The position numbers and the translations under genes are program-made. A stretch of 64,000 nucleotides of DNA from an uncultured Bacilli bacterium (GTDB lineage Bacteria; Bacillota_I; Bacilli_A; RFN20; CAG-826). How positions within the stretch are numbered: the stretch's first letter is position 1; each line of letters starts with the position of its first letter. Below the pieces are notes generated by a model. That model was not told where the DNA came from. It saw nothing but the letters and a program-made list of their open reading frames with translations, and made no database searches. The stretch covers positions 1 to 64,000 of the forward strand of contig CALVXK010000007.1 in assembly GCA_944369075.1 (NCBI GenBank). The letters are read 5' to 3'. Below, piece after piece: positions 1,985 through 58,746 of this stretch.

Positions 1985-2953
1985 ATGAAAAAGAATTTAT
2001 TAGTTGTTGCTCTTATTGGAGCAGGTATGATGTTAGCTTCTTGTGGCGGAACTACTTCAAATGGTGGATTTGATACATCAAAGAATATTTCCCTTTATTC
2101 TAGAGAAGCAGGCAGTGGTACAAGAGAATGCTTCTTTGAAGGAATAGGCTATAGTGATGTCGCAAAAGAAGATTTATGGAATGAAGGTGTTAACCCAGCA
2201 AAACCTACATCAAATGCTGATATGATGTCCAAAATTGCTGCTGATGAATACGGCATCGGTTACTGTTCATTAGACGGCTTAGAAGGAAATACAGATGTTA
2301 AAGCATTAACATTCAAAGGTGTTGAAGCTTCAACAGAAACAGTTGTTGATGGTTCTTATGAATTAAATAGAAACTTCAACTATGTTATTAGAGATTATAG
2401 TGCAGATACAAGTGCAGACGCTCAAAATAAGAGTGATGTTGCGCATGCATTCTTAGAATTCATGGAAACAAGTGAAGGTAAAAATGCTATTCAATCTGCA
2501 GGTGGAATTTTAACAAATACTACTGCTACTACAACATTAGATGATTTAATTGCTAAATATCCTGTTTTAAGTGGTACAGATAAAGTTGAAATTAGAACAT
2601 GCGGTTCTACTTCAGTTGAAAAAGTTGTTACAGCTTTAATCGATAAATTCCTTGGAGCTATTCCAAATAAAAATATTAATATTCCAATGAACCAAACAGG
2701 TTCTGGTGATGCTATTCCAGGTGTTACCGAAGGTAAAAATGGTGTTGTTTCTGATTTAGGATTCCTTTCTAGAGAAATCAAAGATGATGAACTTGCACAA
2801 TTAAACGATAACAATACACATGGCATTATGTGTAAAGATGCTGTTGTTGCTATCGTTAATGCAGCTAACACAGCAATTAGCGATGCAACTCCAGAAACAT
2901 TAACTTCTATTTATAAAGGTGAAATTAAAACTTGGGCTGAATTAGTTAAATAA
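1985..2953 (+). CDS. pstS: phosphate ABC transporter substrate-binding lipoprotein, circularly permuted
   Basis: The protein should capture inorganic phosphate outside the membrane for PstCAB. Residues 1-20 form a lipoprotein signal (LASC, Cys20). The domain order is unusual. SREAGSGTR, normally at the middle of PstS, is at residues 39-47, followed by the usual second-half landmarks (IGYCSLDGLE, VKALTFKGVE, a DGSYELNRNF stretch, FLEFMETSEGKNAI). The normal first-half landmarks come afterwards: GSTSVEKVV at about 207, TGSGD at 238, FLSREIKDDE, VVAIVNAAN and finally IYKGEIKTWAELV at the very C-terminus. All segments of one binding protein are present once, so this reads as an intact circular permutation and not as a truncation. 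Length (322 aa) is normal. The gene heads the pst-pho cluster. Phosphate specificity is supported by the neighbours. Confidence 0.88.
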   Translation: MKKNLLVVALIGAGMMLASCGGTTSNGGFDTSKNISLYSREAGSGTRECFFEGIGYSDVAKEDLWNEGVNPAKPTSNADMMSKIAADEYGIGYCSLDGLEGNTDVKALTFKGVEASTETVVDGSYELNRNFNYVIRDYSADTSADAQNKSDVAHAFLEFMETSEGKNAIQSAGGILTNTTATTTLDDLIAKYPVLSGTDKVEIRTCGSTSVEKVVTALIDKFLGAIPNKNINIPMNQTGSGDAIPGVTEGKNGVVSDLGFLSREIKDDELAQLNDNNTHGIMCKDAVVAIVNAANTAISDATPETLTSIYKGEIKTWAELVK

Positions 2954-2987
2954 TTTATTAAGTTTATTAAAGTCTCCTAAATAAAAT

Positions 2988-3019
2988 TTTGACCCAGATG
3001 TATTATCATTTGGGTCAAA
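2988..3019. other. stem-loop between pstS and pstC
   Basis: TTTGACCCAGATG (2988-3000) and CATTTGGGTCAAA (3007-3019) can pair through 13 positions with one mismatch around a six-base loop. The U-run expected of a strong rho-independent terminator is missing on the + strand (an A-run follows). A transcript-stabilising or partly terminating hairpin that raises PstS relative to PstCAB is plausible; this is inferred. Confidence 0.6.
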
Positions 3020-3035
3020 AAAATTTCTTAAAATG

Positions 3036-3093: not shown

Positions 3094-4110
3094 ATGGAAA
3101 ATCAATTATCTAGAAATAAGTTAGATAATAAAAATAAAAGAAAAATTGTTGGTGATAAGATACTTCATGCTATCTTATTCTTTTTGCTTCTTTTAGCTTC
3201 TTCAATTATTATTATCTCAGTTATTTTTATTATCATTAAAGGTGTACAACCATTTATCTATAACTATGGAACTGATGGAGAAATAGAAAAGCAAGATATT
3301 ATAGCTTTCTTTACTTCTTCTAGATGGACATATAATGGAATGGGTGGTGTACCTTTTTTAGTTTTAACTACTTTATATGTAGTTTTATTATCTTTAATTA
3401 TTAGTGTTCCTACTTCTATTTTTGCTGCTTTATTTATCGCTAAAATTGCTCCAAAAGGTTTATCTTTAGTAATTAGAAGTGCAGTTGATCTTCTTGCTTC
3501 TATTCCTTCAGTTATCTTTGGTCTTTTTGGTATGGGTATAATTTGCCCTATGGTTAGAGAAATTGCTGAAGCTTTTGGAACACAAACTTTTGGTGGATCT
3601 TCCATTTTAAGTGCTGCAATTGTTATTGCAATTATGTCTATTCCAACAATTACTACTTTATCAATAAGTGCTATTAATGCTGTTCCTCAATCACAAATTA
3701 ATGGTTCTTTAGCTCTTGGAGCTTCTAAAGCTCAAACTAACTTAAAAGTTATCTTAAAAGGTGCAAAATCTGGTATATTTGCTGGAATTATTTTAGGTAT
3801 TGGTAGAGCTTTAGGTGAAGCTACTGCTATTCAAATGGTCATCGGTAATACTAGTGAGGGTTCAGGATTTTATAATATCTTTATGCCAGGCTCAACTATT
3901 GCTTCAAGTATGTTAAGTGGTATTGGTGAAGCAAGTGGCTTAGGATATGATGTTAGATTCTCTTTAGGTATTGTTTTAATGTTAATCATTATTGTTACAA
4001 ACTTAATTTTAAATGCAATTAAAAATTACAATAAAGATAAACAAAGAAATGGCTTAATTAAAAGAATTTTAAATCATTTTAGGAAGGTAAAAGACTATGT
4101 CCAAAAATAA
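3094..4110 (+). CDS. pstC: phosphate ABC transporter permease PstC
   Basis: A 338-residue inner permease subunit with about six membrane segments. It pairs with PstA to form the phosphate channel energised by PstB. The first segment is at about residues 22-48, and a short extracytoplasmic loop precedes the transport core. The cytoplasmic EAA-type loop is visible as [13 protein letters not shown], and IPSVIFGLFGMG is typical of PstC. The ATG at 3094 is taken because the following lysine-rich stretch and first membrane helix fit; no clear Shine-Dalgarno is seen. The end overlaps the pstA start by 14 bases, indicating translational coupling. Confidence 0.93.
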   Translation: MENQLSRNKLDNKNKRKIVGDKILHAILFFLLLLASSIIIISVIFIIIKGVQPFIYNYGTDGEIEKQDIIAFFTSSRWTYNGMGGVPFLVLTTLYVVLLSLIISVPTSIFAALFIAKIAPKGLSLVIRSAVDLLASIPSVIFGLFGMGIICPMVREIAEAFGTQTFGGSSILSAAIVIAIMSIPTITTLSISAINAVPQSQINGSLALGASKAQTNLKVILKGAKSGIFAGIILGIGRALGEATAIQMVIGNTSEGSGFYNIFMPGSTIASSMLSGIGEASGLGYDVRFSLGIVLMLIIIVTNLILNAIKNYNKDKQRNGLIKRILNHFRKVKDYVQK

Positions 4111-5416
4111 AAATAATAATAAAAAGTCTATTTCTTTAAGTGATATAGTTTCAAGAAACATTAAAAATAGAAGATTTAAAGACTATTTTACTAATGGTAT
4201 TACTTCTATATTCTCATTTTTATGCGTTTTAATATTAGCTCTTGTTATTGGATATGTCTTAGTTGAAGGTTCTCCTTATTTAACAACTAATTTTATTACT
4301 ACTAATTATGCTCAATCTTCCGTTACTTTAAAAACCGAAAACGACTTTGTTTTAGGTGAAAATAGAGATTATTCTGATTTAATGCGTTATGAAGATACAG
4401 TTTATAGCGATAAATGGGGTATTGGAATTAAATCTAAGAAAGATAATGATCAAAATGATATTTATTATATTTCCGAAATAAGTGTTAATTCTCCATTTAA
4501 TAATGAAATGATTAGAGCTGATGATAGAACTATTTTCCAAGTTACACCAGATTTCTATATCAATTATCTTACTGTTAGAACAGAAGAAGGAACTTATGTA
4601 ACAGTATTTGGCAACGATGATGGTGGAGCTGAAGCTATTATTTCTACTTTAGATCAAGGTATTGCTATTCAAGATAGTGACTTTAAAACTCTTGGCGGCG
4701 GTATTAGATCTTCATTAATTACTACAGTTATTTTAATCTTATTTACAATTGTATTCTCCTTGCCTTTAGGGGTTGGTGGTGCAATTTATCTAGCATATTA
4801 TGCTAAAAACAATCGATTAACTAGAATATTAAGATCTTTAGTTGACATGTCTAGTGGTATCCCTTCCATTATTTTTGGTCTTGTTGGTGCAGCAATATTT
4901 ATTCCAATAATGTCATCAATGACTGGCGCAGTTGGAGGAAACGTAATTACTGGTTCATTAACTTTAACATTAATTTTACTTCCTACAATTGTTAAAACAG
5001 TTGAAGAATCGATAAAAGCAATCAATCCTTCGTTAATTCAAGGTTCTTTAGCTTTAGGTGCTTCTAACTTCCAAACAATTTTCAAGATTATTATTCCAAA
5101 TTCTTTAGACGGTATTTTAAATGCTGCTATCTTATCAATAGGTAGAGCAATCGGAGAAAGTGCAGCCTTAGTTTTTGCAATGGGTACTTTAATTACAGCT
5201 ACCCCATCATTAACTTCTTCTAACACTTCTTTAGCTGTTCATATTTGGTATATCTTAAGTGGTGAACATCCAGCTTATGGACAAGCTTGTGCTATTTCAA
5301 TCATGATTTTATGTGTTGTTTTAGTATTATCGATTATCTCTAAAGTCATTCCAATTTTACTAAATAGAAGAAAGAAAAAAGGAGCTAAGCAAAATGTTAA
5401 ACCTATTCAAAAATAA
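4097..5416 (+). CDS. pstA: phosphate ABC transporter permease PstA with extracellular insert
   Basis: Second permease subunit of the phosphate importer, 439 residues, clearly longer than the usual ~290-300. The first membrane segment (about 36-58) is followed by a hydrophilic stretch to about residue 198 with charged and aromatic residues, predicted to lie outside the cell. The canonical PstA core then starts ([26 protein letters not shown]-type loop [13 protein letters not shown]). The start is set by GGAAGG about ten bases upstream, inside the end of pstC. It overlaps pstB by 23 bases at its end. The extra domain could contact PstS; no domain family is recognised in it. Confidence 0.92.
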
Positions 5417-6251
5417 GAAAAAAGATGTTAACTCTGATGTTAATAATGAGATGTTAAGTAATGATGAATTACCTTATTCTAATGAATATCCTAATGAACA
5501 AGTAATGTTTGAAGTCAAAAATTTTAATTTCTATTACGATAAAAAATCCAAACTTGCTTTAAAAGATATTAATCTTGAAATCTTTAAAAATAAAGTTACA
5601 GCATTTATTGGTCCTTCTGGATGTGGTAAATCAACACTTTTAAGATGTTTTGACCGTATGAATGAACTTATTCAAGATTCTTCTTATGATGGACAAATTC
5701 TTTATAAAAATAAAGAAATTCATTCTTTCAATACTATTGAACTTAGATCAAAGGTTGGTATGGTTTTCCAACAACCTAACCCATTCCCTATGTCAATTTA
5801 TAATAACGTCTCTTATGGTCCAAAATGCCAAGGCCTTAAAGATAAAAAAGAATTAGATAAAATTGTCTTAAATTCTTTAAAAGACGTTGGTTTATATGAT
5901 GAAGTTAGCGATAGATTAAATATTTCTGGATCATCTTTAAGTGGCGGTCAACAACAAAGACTTTGTATTGCTAGATGTATTGCAATGTCTCCAGATGTTA
6001 TTTTAATGGATGAGCCTACAAGTGCTCTTGATCCTATTGCAACTCAAAAAATTGAAGAATTAATTAAGAAACTTAAAGAAAAATATACTATAATTATTGT
6101 TACTCACAATATGCAACAAGCTGCAAGAATTTCAGATTATACTGCTTTCTTTATGCTTGGCGAACTTGTAGAATTTAATAAGACAGAAGAATTCTTTGCT
6201 CGTCCTAAAAACAAAAAGAGTGAGGATTATATTACAGGTAAATTTAGTTAA
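5394..6251 (+). CDS. pstB: phosphate ABC transporter ATP-binding protein PstB
   Basis: A 285-residue ATPase that drives phosphate import. Walker A is GPSGCGKST, the Q-loop is [12 protein letters not shown], the signature is [12 protein letters not shown], Walker B is [13 protein letters not shown] and the switch histidine is in IVTHNM. The QQPNPFP stretch and [10 protein letters not shown] near the end are typical of PstB and distinguish it from other importers. About 38 residues precede the ATPase domain, slightly more than usual. AAGGAG before the ATG supports the start. The start codon lies inside pstA, so translation is probably coupled. Confidence 0.95.
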
Positions 6252-6284: not shown

Positions 6285-6917
6285 ATGGATATTGCAAAAA
6301 CTGAACTTGAATTAGTAGAAATGGCTAAATTCGTTAAAGAATCTCTTCATTTTGCTTTTTCTTACTATTTTGATAAAAATCTAAATAAAGAAAATATCAT
6401 TGATGATGCTAAAGTTAATGCTTACGAAAGACAAATCGAAGAAGAATGTCTTCTTTCAATCTTAAAAGAAAGACCTTTTGCTACAGATTTAAGAAAATTA
6501 ACTGGATATTTTAAAGTTGTAGAAGATTTAGAAAGACTAGGAGATCATGCTGAAGATATTGCATGGTGTACTTCTTCTTTAGCTAAGTTTAAAGAAAATA
6601 TTCGTATTCCTAAACTCGATTTTATGATTAACGAATGTTTAAAGATGGTTGATGATTCTATCGATGCTTTAATTAAAGGTGATGTTGCTTTAGCAAATAG
6701 AGTTATTGCAAATGATGACTTAATTGATACTACGTATTTAGACATTTTAAATCTTCTTCCAGAACTTAAAAAAGATAAAAATCTCGATGATGAATTTGTT
6801 ATTTTCTATACTCTTTTAAATAAATACGTTGAAAGAATTGCTGATCACGCTTCTAATGTTGCTGAATGGGCGATATACATTAAATCAGGATTTTATAAAG
6901 ATAGAAACATCATTTAA
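6285..6917 (+). CDS. phoU: phosphate signalling protein PhoU
   Basis: A 210-residue all-helical protein of the PhoU family, which links the Pst transporter to the histidine kinase and represses the Pho response when phosphate is plentiful. The metal-binding helix motifs are visible as EDLERLGDHAEDIA and, in the second repeat, YVERIADHASNVAEWA. These match the two ExxRxxDxxxNxxE-type motifs of the family. GAAAGGAAAA precedes the ATG. It lies 33 bases after pstB and 6 bases before the response regulator gene. Confidence 0.93.
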   Translation: MDIAKTELELVEMAKFVKESLHFAFSYYFDKNLNKENIIDDAKVNAYERQIEEECLLSILKERPFATDLRKLTGYFKVVEDLERLGDHAEDIAWCTSSLAKFKENIRIPKLDFMINECLKMVDDSIDALIKGDVALANRVIANDDLIDTTYLDILNLLPELKKDKNLDDEFVIFYTLLNKYVERIADHASNVAEWAIYIKSGFYKDRNII

Positions 6918-6923
6918 TTAATT

Positions 6924-7607
6924 ATGGGCTACGTAATCTACTCTCTTGAAGATGATAAAGAAATCTCAAGGGTTATTAACATAATTTTAACTAAAAACGG
7001 CAACGAAGTTGTATCTTTTTATGATGCTACAAGCTTTTTTAAAGCATTTGATAACATTAAACCAAACATGGTACTTTTAGATTTAATGCTACCGGATATG
7101 AGTGGAGAAGATGTTTTAAAAAGAATTAGAAGTGATTCAGCTAATAAAAATATCGAAATTATAGTTGTTAGCGCTAAAAATTCTATTATATCTAAAGTAG
7201 ATATGTTAGATTTAGGAGCTGATGATTATATCGCAAAACCTTTTGAAGTCTTAGAGTTAATTTCAAGAGTTAACGCTAAAAAAAGAAGACATGAAGAAGA
7301 TGAAGTTTTAAAATATAAAGACTTAGAGATTTATCCAAAGAAATTCGAAGTAAAGAAAAATGATAAATTTATTTCTTTTACTACTAACGAATTTAAAATC
7401 TTGCTTTATTTAATTAAAAATAAAGATAGAGTTGTTTCTCGTGATGAACTTTTTAGAGCTTATTGGGGAACAACTAAAGAAGATAAACCTTATGAATCTA
7501 GAGTAATCGATGTTCATGTTAAAGCTATTAGAGATAAACTTTCAAGTAATAAAGATGAATATATCATCACACTTTATGGAGAAGGATATAGATTAAAAAA
7601 TGAATAA
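6924..7607 (+). CDS. phoP: OmpR-family response regulator, PhoP/PhoB-type
   Basis: A 227-residue two-domain regulator. The receiver domain has acidic EDD at 9-11, the phosphoacceptor Asp53 in LLDLMLPDMSG, and the conserved lysine in DYIAKPFE. The C-terminal domain is an OmpR-type winged helix: FTTNEFKILLYL, VVSRDELFRAYWG, and a recognition helix in ESRVIDVHVKAIRDKL. It overlaps the kinase gene by eight bases and sits in the pst operon, so control of phosphate genes through the TTAACA repeats upstream of pstS is the likely role. The name phoP follows Bacillus usage and rests on context. Confidence 0.88.
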   Translation: MGYVIYSLEDDKEISRVINIILTKNGNEVVSFYDATSFFKAFDNIKPNMVLLDLMLPDMSGEDVLKRIRSDSANKNIEIIVVSAKNSIISKVDMLDLGADDYIAKPFEVLELISRVNAKKRRHEEDEVLKYKDLEIYPKKFEVKKNDKFISFTTNEFKILLYLIKNKDRVVSRDELFRAYWGTTKEDKPYESRVIDVHVKAIRDKLSSNKDEYIITLYGEGYRLKNE

Positions 7608-9351
7608 AAAAGGGTTATTTTTTAACTTATTAATCAACATTATACTTTCTTTACTACTTCTTTTTACATGCTTTGGGGTTACTTATTTTATTAACGAAAA
7701 TAACGCTAAAGAAGATTTATCACATTATGGTAATGATATTGCACTTAAATTTAATTCACTTGAAGATAAAGATTTAGTCTATAACGAATATAAAGAAATA
7801 TTACATTTTAGAGTTACTATTATTCCTTTAGATTCTAATGAGGTAGTTTTAGAAGTTAATAATATTGATGCAAATCCTTATAACGAAGATCGACTTCAAG
7901 AAATGAGAGAAAATTTAAACTCTTATTACTATAAAAAATCTAACACCCTTAAAGAAGATGTTCTTTATTATGTTTCATCTAATTCAAGATATTATGTAAG
8001 AGTTGGACTTCTTAGATCAAATATAATTAAAGCTTCGATATATGTACTTATTTTTGGTTCTATTTTAGTTATTATCTTAAATTTACTTTATTATTTCTAC
8101 TTAAGAAAAGTTTATAAAAACAATATTTACTTACTTCAAAGTGAAGTAAGTAAATTAACTAATGTTATTAATATTAGTAATGATAAAAATAATGAAGATA
8201 GTAGTAATAATAACGAAAATAGTAATGTTTTGACTTATAACAATGATGAATTTAAAGTATTAAGCGAAACAATTGATAATACTAGAATTTTAATTTCAGA
8301 AACTTTAGAAAAATTAAAAATAGAAAAAGAAAGAATTAATTATATTATTAATAATGTTAACGAAGGTCTAATTGTTTTAAATAGCGATAAAAACATAATA
8401 ATGATTAACAATTTCGTACTAAACTTACTTAATCTAGAAAAAGATGAAATATTAAATAAATCATATAAGTATTTAATGTTTCCTCTTAAGTTTGAAGAAT
8501 ATATTAACTCTTTAGATAACACTTCTTCTAATGTCAATAATTTATCCTTTGAAGAACAATTAAGTAATAATAAAATCTATGAGTTTAATTTTATTAAAAC
8601 TACTTCTTATTTAAATGGTTCTTCTCCTTTAATCATCATTGTTATTAACGATATTACAAAATTAAAAGAAGTTATTAAAACTAAGAAAGAATTTTTCCAA
8701 AATTCTTCACATGAATTAAAATCACCTTTAACTTCAATTATCGCTTATAGCGAAATGATTGATAATAAGCTTTTAACTTCACCTGAAGAAATAGAAAATG
8801 CTAATGAATCAATCTTAAAAAACGCTAAAAGAATGAAAGAATTAATTTCAAATATGCTTTATCTTTCATCTTTAGAAAATAACAATGAAAATTATACTTC
8901 CTTAGAATATTTAAATGTTAATGATGTCGTTAACAAAATAATTGAAGATAACATTTATAAAATTAAATCGAAAAATATTACTTTAAATGTAATGATGAAA
9001 GATAATGTAGTTCTTTATATTGATCATAATGATTTAGATACTTTATTAAGAAATTTAATTATTAATGCTATTCAATATGATAAAACTAATGGCTATATAG
9101 AAATCGAATTAACTCCTAACTTCTTTAGAATTAAAGACGATGGAATCGGTATTAAAGAAAGTGAAAAAGATGAGATATTTACTCGTTTTAAACGTAGTAA
9201 AGAAGCTTTACAAGTTAATGAAGAAGGAACTGGCTTAGGTTTAGCTATCGTAAAACATGTTGCATTAAAATATCATTATAAAATTGAGGTTAATTCCAAA
9301 GAAAATGAATATTCAGAGTTTATTGTTTATTTTAACGATAAGTTAAAGTAA
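7600..9351 (+). CDS. phoR: PAS-containing sensor histidine kinase, PhoR-type
   Basis: A 583-residue membrane kinase, the partner of the upstream regulator. Helix 1 is about residues 8-29 and helix 2 about 142-166, enclosing a ~110-residue extracellular domain. A low-complexity Asn/Ser/Asp linker (about 196-214) is followed by a PAS domain (about 245-355). The H-box is SSHELKSPLTS with His371. The ATPase domain shows the N-box (LIINAIQYD), DDGIGI and GTGLGLAIVKH. Kinases of this design (HAMP-poor, PAS, HisKA) are typical of PhoR. It is the last gene of the overlapping pst-pho run. The homopolymer-rich linker is compositionally odd but lies in frame. Confidence 0.88.
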   Translation: MNKKGLFFNLLINIILSLLLLFTCFGVTYFINENNAKEDLSHYGNDIALKFNSLEDKDLVYNEYKEILHFRVTIIPLDSNEVVLEVNNIDANPYNEDRLQEMRENLNSYYYKKSNTLKEDVLYYVSSNSRYYVRVGLLRSNIIKASIYVLIFGSILVIILNLLYYFYLRKVYKNNIYLLQSEVSKLTNVINISNDKNNEDSSNNNENSNVLTYNNDEFKVLSETIDNTRILISETLEKLKIEKERINYIINNVNEGLIVLNSDKNIIMINNFVLNLLNLEKDEILNKSYKYLMFPLKFEEYINSLDNTSSNVNNLSFEEQLSNNKIYEFNFIKTTSYLNGSSPLIIIVINDITKLKEVIKTKKEFFQNSSHELKSPLTSIIAYSEMIDNKLLTSPEEIENANESILKNAKRMKELISNMLYLSSLENNNENYTSLEYLNVNDVVNKIIEDNIYKIKSKNITLNVMMKDNVVLYIDHNDLDTLLRNLIINAIQYDKTNGYIEIELTPNFFRIKDDGIGIKESEKDEIFTRFKRSKEALQVNEEGTGLGLAIVKHVALKYHYKIEVNSKENEYSEFIVYFNDKLK

Positions 9352-9499: not shown

Positions 9500-10072
9500 A
9501 TGAAGAAATTTTATCTTACTTTAATAATTAGTTCACTAATTTTTACTAGCTGCTCTTCAAACACAAGACCAGAAAATTTAAATAATGAAACTATGCATTA
9601 TTTACCTATTCAAACATTAATGGATAAAGATATTGTCTTCAATACAAGTGAAGAAAAAATCAATTTTAAAGTCTTAAATTCATATTTAGATTATACTTCT
9701 ATTCTATTAACAATAAATTCTTCAAATTTATTTATTTTAGATGAAAATTCAAAACTAGAAATTGCAAAAGATGATTTTAATAACTCTCTTATTTCTTTTG
9801 TTTCTTTAAAAACTCGATATTTCACATCATACCCACTTTATTACTCTGGTTCTAGTTTTGATGAAAAAAATAAATCAGTTGATTTAAATTTTTATTCATA
9901 TAATCCAACAGAAGATGGTGCAGTCGGCACTGATTTACCTACTTACCATTATTTCTTTATAAAACTTAATAGTGTTAATAAAGATGAACTAAACGAAATA
10001 ATTGTTAATTTTAATATTCAAGATTATGATGGCAAAGATATTGAAAATAATAATAAAACTTTTTCAATTTAA
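9500..10072 (+). CDS. small predicted lipoprotein, function unknown
   Basis: A 190-residue protein with a lipoprotein signal: positively charged start, hydrophobic stretch, and FTSC lipobox with Cys at about residue 18. The rest has no recognised motif; alternating polar and aromatic residues (ILLTINSSNLFIL, YTSYPLYY-like stretch, YHYFFIKL) suggest a beta-rich extracellular fold. TAGGAG lies 13-16 bases before the ATG. It follows phoR by ~150 bases, on the same strand but with its own likely promoter, so inclusion in the Pho response is possible yet unproven. The role is unknown. Confidence 0.75.
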   Translation: MKKFYLTLIISSLIFTSCSSNTRPENLNNETMHYLPIQTLMDKDIVFNTSEEKINFKVLNSYLDYTSILLTINSSNLFILDENSKLEIAKDDFNNSLISFVSLKTRYFTSYPLYYSGSSFDEKNKSVDLNFYSYNPTEDGAVGTDLPTYHYFFIKLNSVNKDELNEIIVNFNIQDYDGKDIENNNKTFSI

Positions 10073-22798: not shown

Positions 22799-22853
22799 CT
22801 TTATCTCCTTTAGACTAAATCTAATACATCTTTAACATTATTTAACACTAAAA

Positions 22854-40707: not shown

Positions 40708-43700
40708 TTAATCATTATTGTTTTTTTTATCTTTCATTACTACTATGAAAGTAACAATTAAACCAATTACTATTAATCCACCAACAACCGATAATCCAAT
40801 AACAAGAGGTAAATTAATATCAGATTTAATATCGCCACTAAATGTAACTAAAAAATCATATGAATTAGCTGAATTAATATTTTTTGAATTATCAAAAGTA
40901 AAGGTTAAAGATGTGCCATTTTTATTAGATGAAAGTGAAGTAAGATTAGAACTACTACCATTTTCATCACTTAAAGAATAAACCGTGCTATCAGCATTAA
41001 TATATGTATCTTCTAATGATAAAACAACAGTGTAAGGTGATTCTTTATCGAGTTTTTGATACATTCCAACTGGATTAGTAATTGATAAAGAATAACCGAA
41101 AGTATTTTTATTACCATTATATAATCCATAATTTATGCTATCTAAATAAACGACATCTGTTTCATTGATATTCTTATTAAAAACTAAAGCATTTAAATTA
41201 GATACGCTTCTTCCATAAAGTACTCCATAGTTTTTCCCAATAACTTCAATAAATAAGTCATTATAAGAATTAAATAAATCATTAAAACCAGGCAATACAA
41301 TTTCATTAAGATTTAAAGTAAATGAGAAAGATCCATTATCTAATTTAGTTTTAGTTAATACCTCACCGTTTACTCTAACTTGAGCAATATCGTCTTTAGA
41401 AGAAACAATAGTTAAAGTTTTAGTATCATAATAAATCTCTTCAAGTTCAACATCATTAACTTCAGAATCTATCTCTAAAATATATTCTTTAGTATATGTA
41501 TAATCATCAAATAAAGTATAAGTAAATTTTAAAGAGTATGTTCCATCTTCAAAATAATTTCCGCTTTCTTTATCTTTTAACGGAATAATTGTATAAGCAA
41601 AATCTGCAAAAATACCATTATTTACTAAATTAACACTAGCTTTAGATTTAACTAAAGAATAATCGTCTTCTTCACTAACCATTGTATCAAACATATGGTC
41701 AGTTAAAACAACCTTATTTGTATCTAAAGAAGTTAAAGTAATTTCATTTGTCTTAACACTTCTATTAACAAAGTTTTGGATATATAAAGTATCAGCGCTA
41801 CCTATATTACCAGCATAAAGAATAAATTTATCTTCATTTTCATCATAAGAATAATTAATAGGAATAAATAAATCATCAATACTTTTTTCGTTTAAAATAA
41901 CGCTTTCCATATCAAGTTGATCTAAACCTAAATTAGTTACACCCATAAACGAACCAAAATTCATTGCTTTAAATCCAAGTGTTTCGCCAAAATTATTTAA
42001 CATATCTGAAGAATAAACTTTATTATCACCATAATATTCTTTTTCAAAATTATATGGTTCAATTACATCTTCTTTATGGTAATCACCTAAGAATCCAAGT
42101 ACAGGAATAGATAAATCAACTAAATTAGCATTATTAGTATCATTATTTAATGTTACATAACCTTCTAAATATGTTCCATTAGGGAAATCTTTTAAGATTG
42201 AATCTAAAGTTGATTTATCTAATTGATAATCAATACAAATAGTTTGATTTTCGTTTCCATCTAAATTCACTTCGAAAGAATCACTAATTACTTCTTTAGT
42301 GTAGAAGCTATCTTGAACTTTTTCACCTTTTAAAAATCCATTAGAATTTTCGCTATCAACATAAGTAATAGTTGGTGTTCCTAAAGATAAATTTAAAGTA
42401 TATTTACCAGTTAAATTCTCTTTATTAACAACATTAATATCAAACTTAACATGTCCTTCACTTATTTCAGGATTATTTTTTAATTCAATCGCTGATTCAT
42501 GAGTTAATGGATCTTCTAAATAGATTTTAGTTTTAATTGCATCACTTACATCAACTTCTCCTGCTCCGACTTTTCTAACACTTACATAAGATTCATTAGC
42601 TTGTTTAATAGGATTGGCTGTTGACATAATTCTATTTAATAAAGTATCTTTAAATTCTTTTTCTTCATTTTCATCTTTAAAATCTTGACTTGATAAGATT
42701 AAAGCTTCAGCCCCACTAAAATTAGGTGTAGCCATCGATGTTCCTGAAAGATAACGATATTCGTTATTTGTTGTAACACCATTATTAGAAGCTGAAATAC
42801 CAGCAATATTTTGTCCTGGTGCACTAATTTGTGGATTAATATCGAGTAACTGTGAACTTCCTTCACTAGAAAAATCTGAAGCTAAACTTTTAGTGATATA
42901 AATAGCTTTTTCTTCTTGATTAAGTAATGTTTGATAGCTTTCATAAGAAATTGAATAAGTAGGAATTAAATCATCACTTTTATTTCCTTGTAAGTCATAA
43001 TTTATTAAACTTCCTAAACCTTCTTGATTAGCGATAATAATTCCAATTGCTCCATGGCTTTTAGCATTTTTAATTTTACTTACTAAATCAATATCGCCTC
43101 TTTTAACTAAAGCAATTTTACCAGTTACATCAACATCATTGTAATCGCTATTATCACCAACTCCTGGAACAATTACATATTCATACTTTCCAACAGTTTC
43201 GTCATTATCGAGTAATGACCACATCATTTTTGGTTCAGAATTATAATTTAATAATGAGCTAGTAATTTCATCATAGCCATAAATCTTAATTCCAGAAACT
43301 GTTGAGATATCGGAAGTTACAGAATTATCACTAGTTAAATTAGTTGAAGCAACTGAAGTTACTCCATCTAAAACGTTATAACCACCTAAACTACCATTTT
43401 CAACATTGTTAACATTATCATTGCGGTAAGATTCAAAAGTATTGAAGTTTCCTTTACCATTATTGCCACTAGCAAAATTAACTTCGGTACCATTTTCTTT
43501 GAGTCTAGAAATTAATATTTGAGCATTTTCATCTTCTGTTAAAGAAGATTCGTCTAAATCAGTACCAAAAGAACAAGAAACAATATCTGCGCCTAAGTAA
43601 TATGCATCATTTAGCGCTTTAAAAATTGCATCATCACTTAAAATATTATCTCCGCTTAATCCAGGAACTTCTCCACCTACTTTCATTAAAGCAAGTTGCG

Positions 43701-58110: not shown

Positions 58111-58746
58111 CTACATCTTATCTTTTTCACTAATAAAGTTAGTTCTTTCATTAAAAGTTAATTTAGGCAAAGGTAAATTATTTTCTTTTGCTAAAGAAAT
58201 AGCTTTAAGTAAATAAGCCATGTTTTTACCTAAATTATGCATAGTTTCTATTCCTTCTAAATCATATTTTGCTTCCTCTTTAGAAGGTCCATGAACATTA
58301 TTCCAATAGTTAGAAGGAATAACAAACATGTTAGATATAGTAAAATATTTATTAATTACATCAAAAGATGCTGTGGCACCACTTCTTCTTAAAGTAATAA
58401 CGCTAGCTCCTACTTTATGTTTAAAAACACTTTTACCAGAATAAAATACTCTATCTAAAAATGAAAGAATTCTTCCTGTAGGATGGCCATAATAAACAGG
58501 AGAACCAAAAACAAATCCATCAACTTCGCTTGCTTTTTTAACAAATTCATTAACAATATCATTAAATACACATCCTTCATGAGAGGCACAATATCCACAA
58601 GCAATACAATCATTAATAGCTTTATTTCCTAAATCAATAATTTCAGTTTCAATACCTTCTTCATTTAATGATTTAGCAACTTCATTAAGAGCAAATTTAG
58701 TAGTTCCATTAACATTAGGGCTTCCATTTACAAGCAATACTTTCAT
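58111..58746 (-). CDS. flavodoxin-like NAD(P)H-dependent FMN reductase / iron-sulfur flavoprotein
   Basis: A 211-residue flavodoxin-fold protein. The phosphate-binding loop of FMN is LLVNGSPNVNGTTKFAL, and FGSPVYYGHPTGRILSFLDRV gives the rest of the flavin site. CIACGYCASHEGC holds closely spaced cysteines like those of iron-sulfur flavoproteins. It probably reduces quinones, nitro compounds or metals and is common in anaerobes. The frame begins TTG-ATG; AAAGGAGA is optimally placed for the ATG at 58746. First gene of a pair with the esterase. Confidence 0.88.
   Translation of the reverse strand: MKVLLVNGSPNVNGTTKFALNEVAKSLNEEGIETEIIDLGNKAINDCIACGYCASHEGCVFNDIVNEFVKKASEVDGFVFGSPVYYGHPTGRILSFLDRVFYSGKSVFKHKVGASVITLRRSGATASFDVINKYFTISNMFVIPSNYWNNVHGPSKEEAKYDLEGIETMHNLGKNMAYLLKAISLAKENNLPLPKLTFNERTNFISEKDKM

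Follow-up and report, generated by a model that had tools for sequence, protein, structure and literature searches.

Does the lipoprotein encoded at the head of the pst locus of an uncultured Bacilli bacterium (RFN20; CAG-826) carry the segments of the phosphate-binding protein PstS in permuted order, would it serve as the phosphate receptor, and how might such an order have arisen? The window, i.e., the whole 64,000-nucleotide stretch analyzed (positions 1 to 64,000 of contig CALVXK010000007.1, GenBank assembly GCA_944369075.1), lies in a genome of 1.25 Mb (35 contigs, 93.9% complete). Segment orders were called by HMM segmentation and are written with three elements, where A is GSTSV ... hinge strand ... 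IYKGEIKTW, 1 is ISLYSREAGSGTR ... RNFNYV and 2 is the C-terminal helices; standard PstS is A12 and the window protein 12A. The gene has the following parts.

1985–2953, + strand: permuted pstS, a 322-amino acid lipoprotein with order 1-2-A versus A-1-2 (uninterrupted 322-codon ORF)
1985–2044, + strand: lipoprotein signal peptide with LASC lipobox, Cys20 (sequence)
2087–2392, + strand: element 1, ISLYSREAGSGTR ... RNFNYV, the mid-part of standard PstS, lobe II, N-terminal here (HMM segmentation; PF12849 131–263)
2429–2545, + strand: element 2, AFLEFM-SEGK-AGGIL, the C-terminal helices of standard PstS (HMM segmentation)
2546–2587, + strand: linker from the old C-terminus to the old N-terminus, containing a short helix (AlphaFold helix 159–165, mature numbering)
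2588–2944, + strand: element A, GSTSV ... hinge strand ... IYKGEIKTW, the first part of standard PstS, C-terminal here (HMM segmentation; PF12849 9–125)

The preliminary description had read this gene as a circularly permuted PstS with all parts present once in an uninterrupted 322-codon frame, and this proved true. The ORF is open throughout, with SREAGSGTR at residues 39–47, GSTSV at 207–211 and IYKGEIKTW at 309–317, and profiles from two libraries each matched it in two stretches of swapped order. For PF12849 (70.9 bits, cut-off 27), profile positions 131–263 matched at 2081–2464 and 9–125 at 2582–2941; for TIGR02136, positions 161–291 matched at 2078–2503 and 21–157 at 2534–2950. The TIGR02136 score of 124.4 bits was below the curated whole-protein cut-off of 206.6, and since the standard-order protein of locus L040 also fell under this cut-off (118.5), divergence, too, contributes to the low score. 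The protein is homologous to PstS without being colinear, N to C, with the standard PstS fold. Standard PstS (TIGR02136/PF12849; C. perfringens 4Q8R, V. cholerae 1TWY, E. coli) has the same segments, binding-site residues and operon, but its order is A-1-2 and its N-terminus and lipid anchor are in lobe I. A lipobox was present in 86 of 89 distinct permuted ORFs.

AlphaFold modeling of the window PstS with 28 permuted homologs gave a single complete two-lobed fold (pLDDT 94.0, pTM 0.85), the same fold as in 4H1X. With each segment present once, the order swapped, the old termini joined and the fold retained, the protein has the features of a natural circular permutant. When the permuted-family profile was compared with solved structures, the sole colinear full-length match was 4H1X (E 1e-59, profile 32–311 on chain 7–264); for the remaining PstS structures, the best stretch spanned one half only. 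The window model likewise matched 4H1X colinearly over its full length using Foldseek (E 2.4e-24) and using VIA-align (Z 29.8, rmsd 1.8, 252 residues), its best structural match being a PstS with the type II fold, while standard PstS 4Q8R and 1TWY aligned over only ~135 residues. Among the next-best full-length matches of the permuted model was B. subtilis OpuAC (2B4L, 5NXX), a glycine betaine-binding protein and permuted relative of ProX, with a Z of only ~9.

The protein in 4H1X (2012) is Streptococcus pneumoniae PstS2 (SP_2084), which heads the pst2 operon (PMC4913102). The window PstS is of this type, sharing its permuted order, break point and fold; identity is ~30%, and in the tree described below PstS2 lies outside the 56-row clade of the window protein. 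A permuted PstS has thus been available in the PDB since 2012. The preliminary description knew of no account of such a protein, which agrees with the open-access literature (subscription journals were mostly outside its coverage), where no paper was found that names any PstS permuted or mentions 4H1X, and where PstS and circular permutation co-occurred only in a viral metagenome study; as regards structures, it is overtaken by 4H1X.

That the order is an assembly or frame artefact could be entertained for a 35-contig draft, and misassembly and chance were considered and rejected. The same order was found in a relative from another assembly (92% identity), in dozens of independent assemblies including single-contig genomes, on two plasmids and in one crystallized protein, and the probability of an artefact is negligible.

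The position of the break was assessed using the C. perfringens protein, in which the N-lobe comprises residues 24–111 and 279–324, the other lobe residues 112–278, and the hinge strands lie at ~102–117 (PMC12421899). Mature residues 253–266 (HGIMCKDAVVAIVN) form the long hinge strand of the window model, and 30 more residues, containing the IYKGEIKTW helix, follow up to the C-terminal end; the chain starts with the ISLYSRE strand. With lobes assigned by homology, the model places the new ends inside lobe II, between the IYKGEIKTW helix and the ISLYSRE strand and ~30 residues beyond the hinge strand, and not at the inter-domain hinge as first proposed. The form cut beside the hinge is 2A1, which occurs in relatives and is not the 12A of the window. 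A break inside lobe II would leave lobe I continuous and build lobe II from both chain ends, with the lipid anchor leading into lobe II.

The gene very probably encodes a naturally circularly permuted PstS that receives phosphate for its Pst transporter, judging from conserved residues and gene context. Across 95 sequences of all orders, four residues were invariant, namely Ser in TGSG and Arg, Ser and Gly in R-x-x-G-S-G-T, and the Thr of the latter motif was kept in 93 of these. The Ser of LSRE, which by alignment takes the place of E. coli Asp56, was invariant in 28 permuted sequences, and 12 of the 61 12A rows had Asp, Ser or Ile in place of the Thr of GSTSV. By alignment, the window PstS has the phosphate-coordinating residues, and its R-x-x-G-S-G-T Arg aligns with Arg125 of 4Q8R, a phosphate ligand (PMC12421899). 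No second PF12849 gene was found in the assembly (35 contigs, 93.9% complete). The gene heads a complete pst-phoU-phoPR locus, as initially described, with gene identities resting on Pfam matches:

1879–1895, + strand: PhoP-box-like direct repeat TTAACA-N5-TTAACA, upstream of pstS (exact pattern)
2987–3020, + strand: 14-pair hairpin in the pstS-pstC gap, terminator- or attenuator-like (−19.7 kcal/mol, z −6.7)
3094–4110, + strand: pstC (PF00528 and operon position; C versus A assigned by gene order and RefSeq-named orthologous operons)
4097–5416, + strand: pstA (PF00528 and operon position; assigned as for pstC)
5394–6251, + strand: pstB (PF00005)
6285–6917, + strand: phoU (PF01895)
6924–7607, + strand: phoP-like response regulator (PF00072 and PF00486)
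7600–9351, + strand: phoR-like histidine kinase (PF00512 and PF02518)

The variable first loop of some relatives (GSDSV) might be accounted for if the protein were a PstS-like lipoprotein that binds a different ligand or acts as a sensor, rather than the main phosphate receptor. This is very unlikely for the only PF12849 gene of the assembly, found at the head of pstCAB-phoU-phoPR with a conserved phosphate site and a PhoP-box-like repeat upstream. That the protein is probably a working phosphate receptor, as originally suggested, is therefore supported. Phosphate would be held in the cleft by the standard residues (GSTSV, TGSG, the Ser of LSRE and R-x-x-G-S-G-T), and the lobes would close and dock on PstC-PstA in the usual manner; the chief physical change would be that the lipid anchor now enters lobe II, not lobe I. 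Treponema pallidum TpMglB-2 (Tp0684) is also a natural circular permutant among lipid-anchored ABC binding proteins, and its authors propose a tie between permutation and membrane anchoring (PMC4990184). Compared by description, it differs in having a type I glucose-binding fold and another cut, and is no close homolog of the window PstS.

The pattern TTAACA-N4-6-TTAACA occurred 5 times in the window versus 0.22 expected (1879–1895, 5426–5443 on the − strand, 22832–22847, 41753–41770 and 58538–58555), and the same repeat lies 104 nt upstream of the permuted pstS of locus L065. These repeats resemble PhoP boxes of the B. subtilis PhoP consensus, and possibly mark a Pho regulon. The strong hairpin between pstS and pstC would fit an arrangement often seen where the binding protein is produced in excess. 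Directly 3′ of phoR, positions 9500–10072 encode a lipoprotein-like protein of 190 amino acids that no Pfam profile matched.

At least 15 family-level groups of the class yielded matches to the permuted profile that were single and full-length, several of them from single-contig genomes, and in a phylum-level search, matches were confined to this class. Outside it, permuted pstS genes lie on a plasmid of Monoglobus pectinilyticus (Clostridia) and on one of Treponema saccharophilum, each followed by annotated pstC-pstA-pstB-phoU; RefSeq names both only 'substrate-binding domain-containing protein', though they lie directly before pstC. Where the flank was long enough, nearly all PstS genes, of all orders, were directly upstream of pstC. 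Divergent PstS-like membrane-anchored proteins of standard order were also seen (L041–L046, L051, L053, L055–L060), most with a GAAAL(F/V)P motif; at the loci checked for neighbors (L044, L046, L051, L053 and L055–L060), no PstC was detected nearby.

The preliminary description had also suggested a search of relatives for tandem or permuted versions, and these exist: besides 12A across the class, fused tandems occur in six genomes and 2A1 in two. The 12A12A12A form is one 910-residue frame in G493, and 12A12A was found in G476, G376 (a single contig), G388, G278 and G346, with units 80–98% identical. In these multi-copy PstS lipoproteins (L104–L109), each predicted anchor carries two or three complete phosphate sites, and the near identity of the units points to recent duplication or to gene conversion. 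The 2A1 proteins (L110 in G423, L111 in G038) start with the C-terminal helices and end with the second hinge strand. Over aligned columns, that of G423 shares 60% identity with the 12A protein of G545; in the model of the G423 protein (pLDDT 96.3, pTM 0.90), residues 63–287 match standard PstS (Z 23) and residues 10–181 match 4H1X residues 140–291 (Z 14.4). Adjacent, separate pstS duplicates before pstC were observed at L112, L153 and L160 (standard order) and at L113 (12A).

The permuted order may have arisen when the product of an in-frame tandem duplication was trimmed at new ends, and permutation by duplication with functional tandem intermediates is a textbook model (PMC3320104). The fused tandems and 2A1 would be the intermediates and forms expected from this route, and because six relatives keep fused tandems and two carry 2A1, segment order in the PstS family appears to have changed repeatedly. 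The standard-order profile fits over the joint of the G376 12A12A protein (residues 177–444 to 26–290), which shows how a trimmed tandem could give A12, 12A or 2A1. A tandem ancestor, named at the outset as a likely origin, is plausible given in-frame 12A12A and 12A12A12A genes, though their place as ancestors is only inferred and they could instead be derived products. Fission and fusion of two half-genes is the recognized alternative model (PMC3320104) and is quite unlikely here: no separate half-genes were recognized beside pst operons, and both the fused copies and a second cut point are predicted by duplication. In the textbook cases, DNA methyltransferases and saposins, duplicated or partly trimmed intermediates are known (PMC3320104); these are other families, whereas in PstS tandem forms, two permuted orders and the standard order coexist at one operon position.

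Order switches were mapped on a tree of 95 rows, for which A and 1 were aligned separately and then joined, so that order was irrelevant; the tree was unrooted and the direction of each switch is not fixed. A 56-row clade (100/100) contained most 12A proteins, all tandems and both 2A1 proteins, with three A12 rows inside. Forcing all standard-order rows into one clade cost 175 log units (p-AU 2e-5), ruling out a single standard/permuted switch for the whole set, and this label required at least 4 changes on the tree. The 2A1 protein L110 grouped with the 12A protein of G545 (L126; 100/97 to 100/99). The A12 protein L040 grouped with 12A proteins L023 and L027 (99/83, 99/94), and was 54–63% identical to permuted G012 versus 37% to standard G047. 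Its C-terminal tail resembles the 2-A linker of 12A proteins, which fits reversion and, equally, an ancestral C-terminal helix. Placing L040 with the standard group gave p-AU 0.096, and outside the permuted clade 0.138; for the f5 standard-order pair, the values were 0.44 and 0.15. Reversion to standard order is suggested by the tree but is not proven, because moving L040 or the f5 pair out singly was not rejected (p-AU 0.096–0.44).

These values, together with the opening of every 12A protein in the same loop, would also suit one ancient permutation and one switch only, with the standard-order genes among the permuted ones being unrelated old-type genes acquired by transfer. We consider this unlikely in view of the cost of a single standard-order clade, the likeness of L040 to permuted G012 and the adjacency of 2A1 to 12A proteins. 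12A may also have originated more than once, because the 12A forms of pneumococcus, Monoglobus/Treponema and genus g32 lie among standard-order rows.

The permutation is real, widespread and functional-looking, known from a structure and apparently not from the open literature; of greater interest is the evolutionary series in which the window PstS stands. Although PstS counts as a textbook binding protein, its halves are swapped in a whole branch, to which one of the two pneumococcal PstS proteins belongs, and current profile models split these proteins. On balance, we favor the view that PstS topology is fluid in this class and beyond, with cycles of in-frame tandem duplication and trimming giving three or more single-copy orders (A12, 12A and 2A1 among them), fusions of two or three copies and, probably, reversions to the standard order, while operon position and fold stay the same. 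If true, PstS would offer an unusually complete set of natural stages in permutation by duplication, here in the receptor of an ABC transporter. With tandem, differently cut and standard-order relatives existing side by side, nature supplies a test of how proteins acquire new topologies, and of whether it matters where on a Venus-flytrap receptor the membrane anchor sits.
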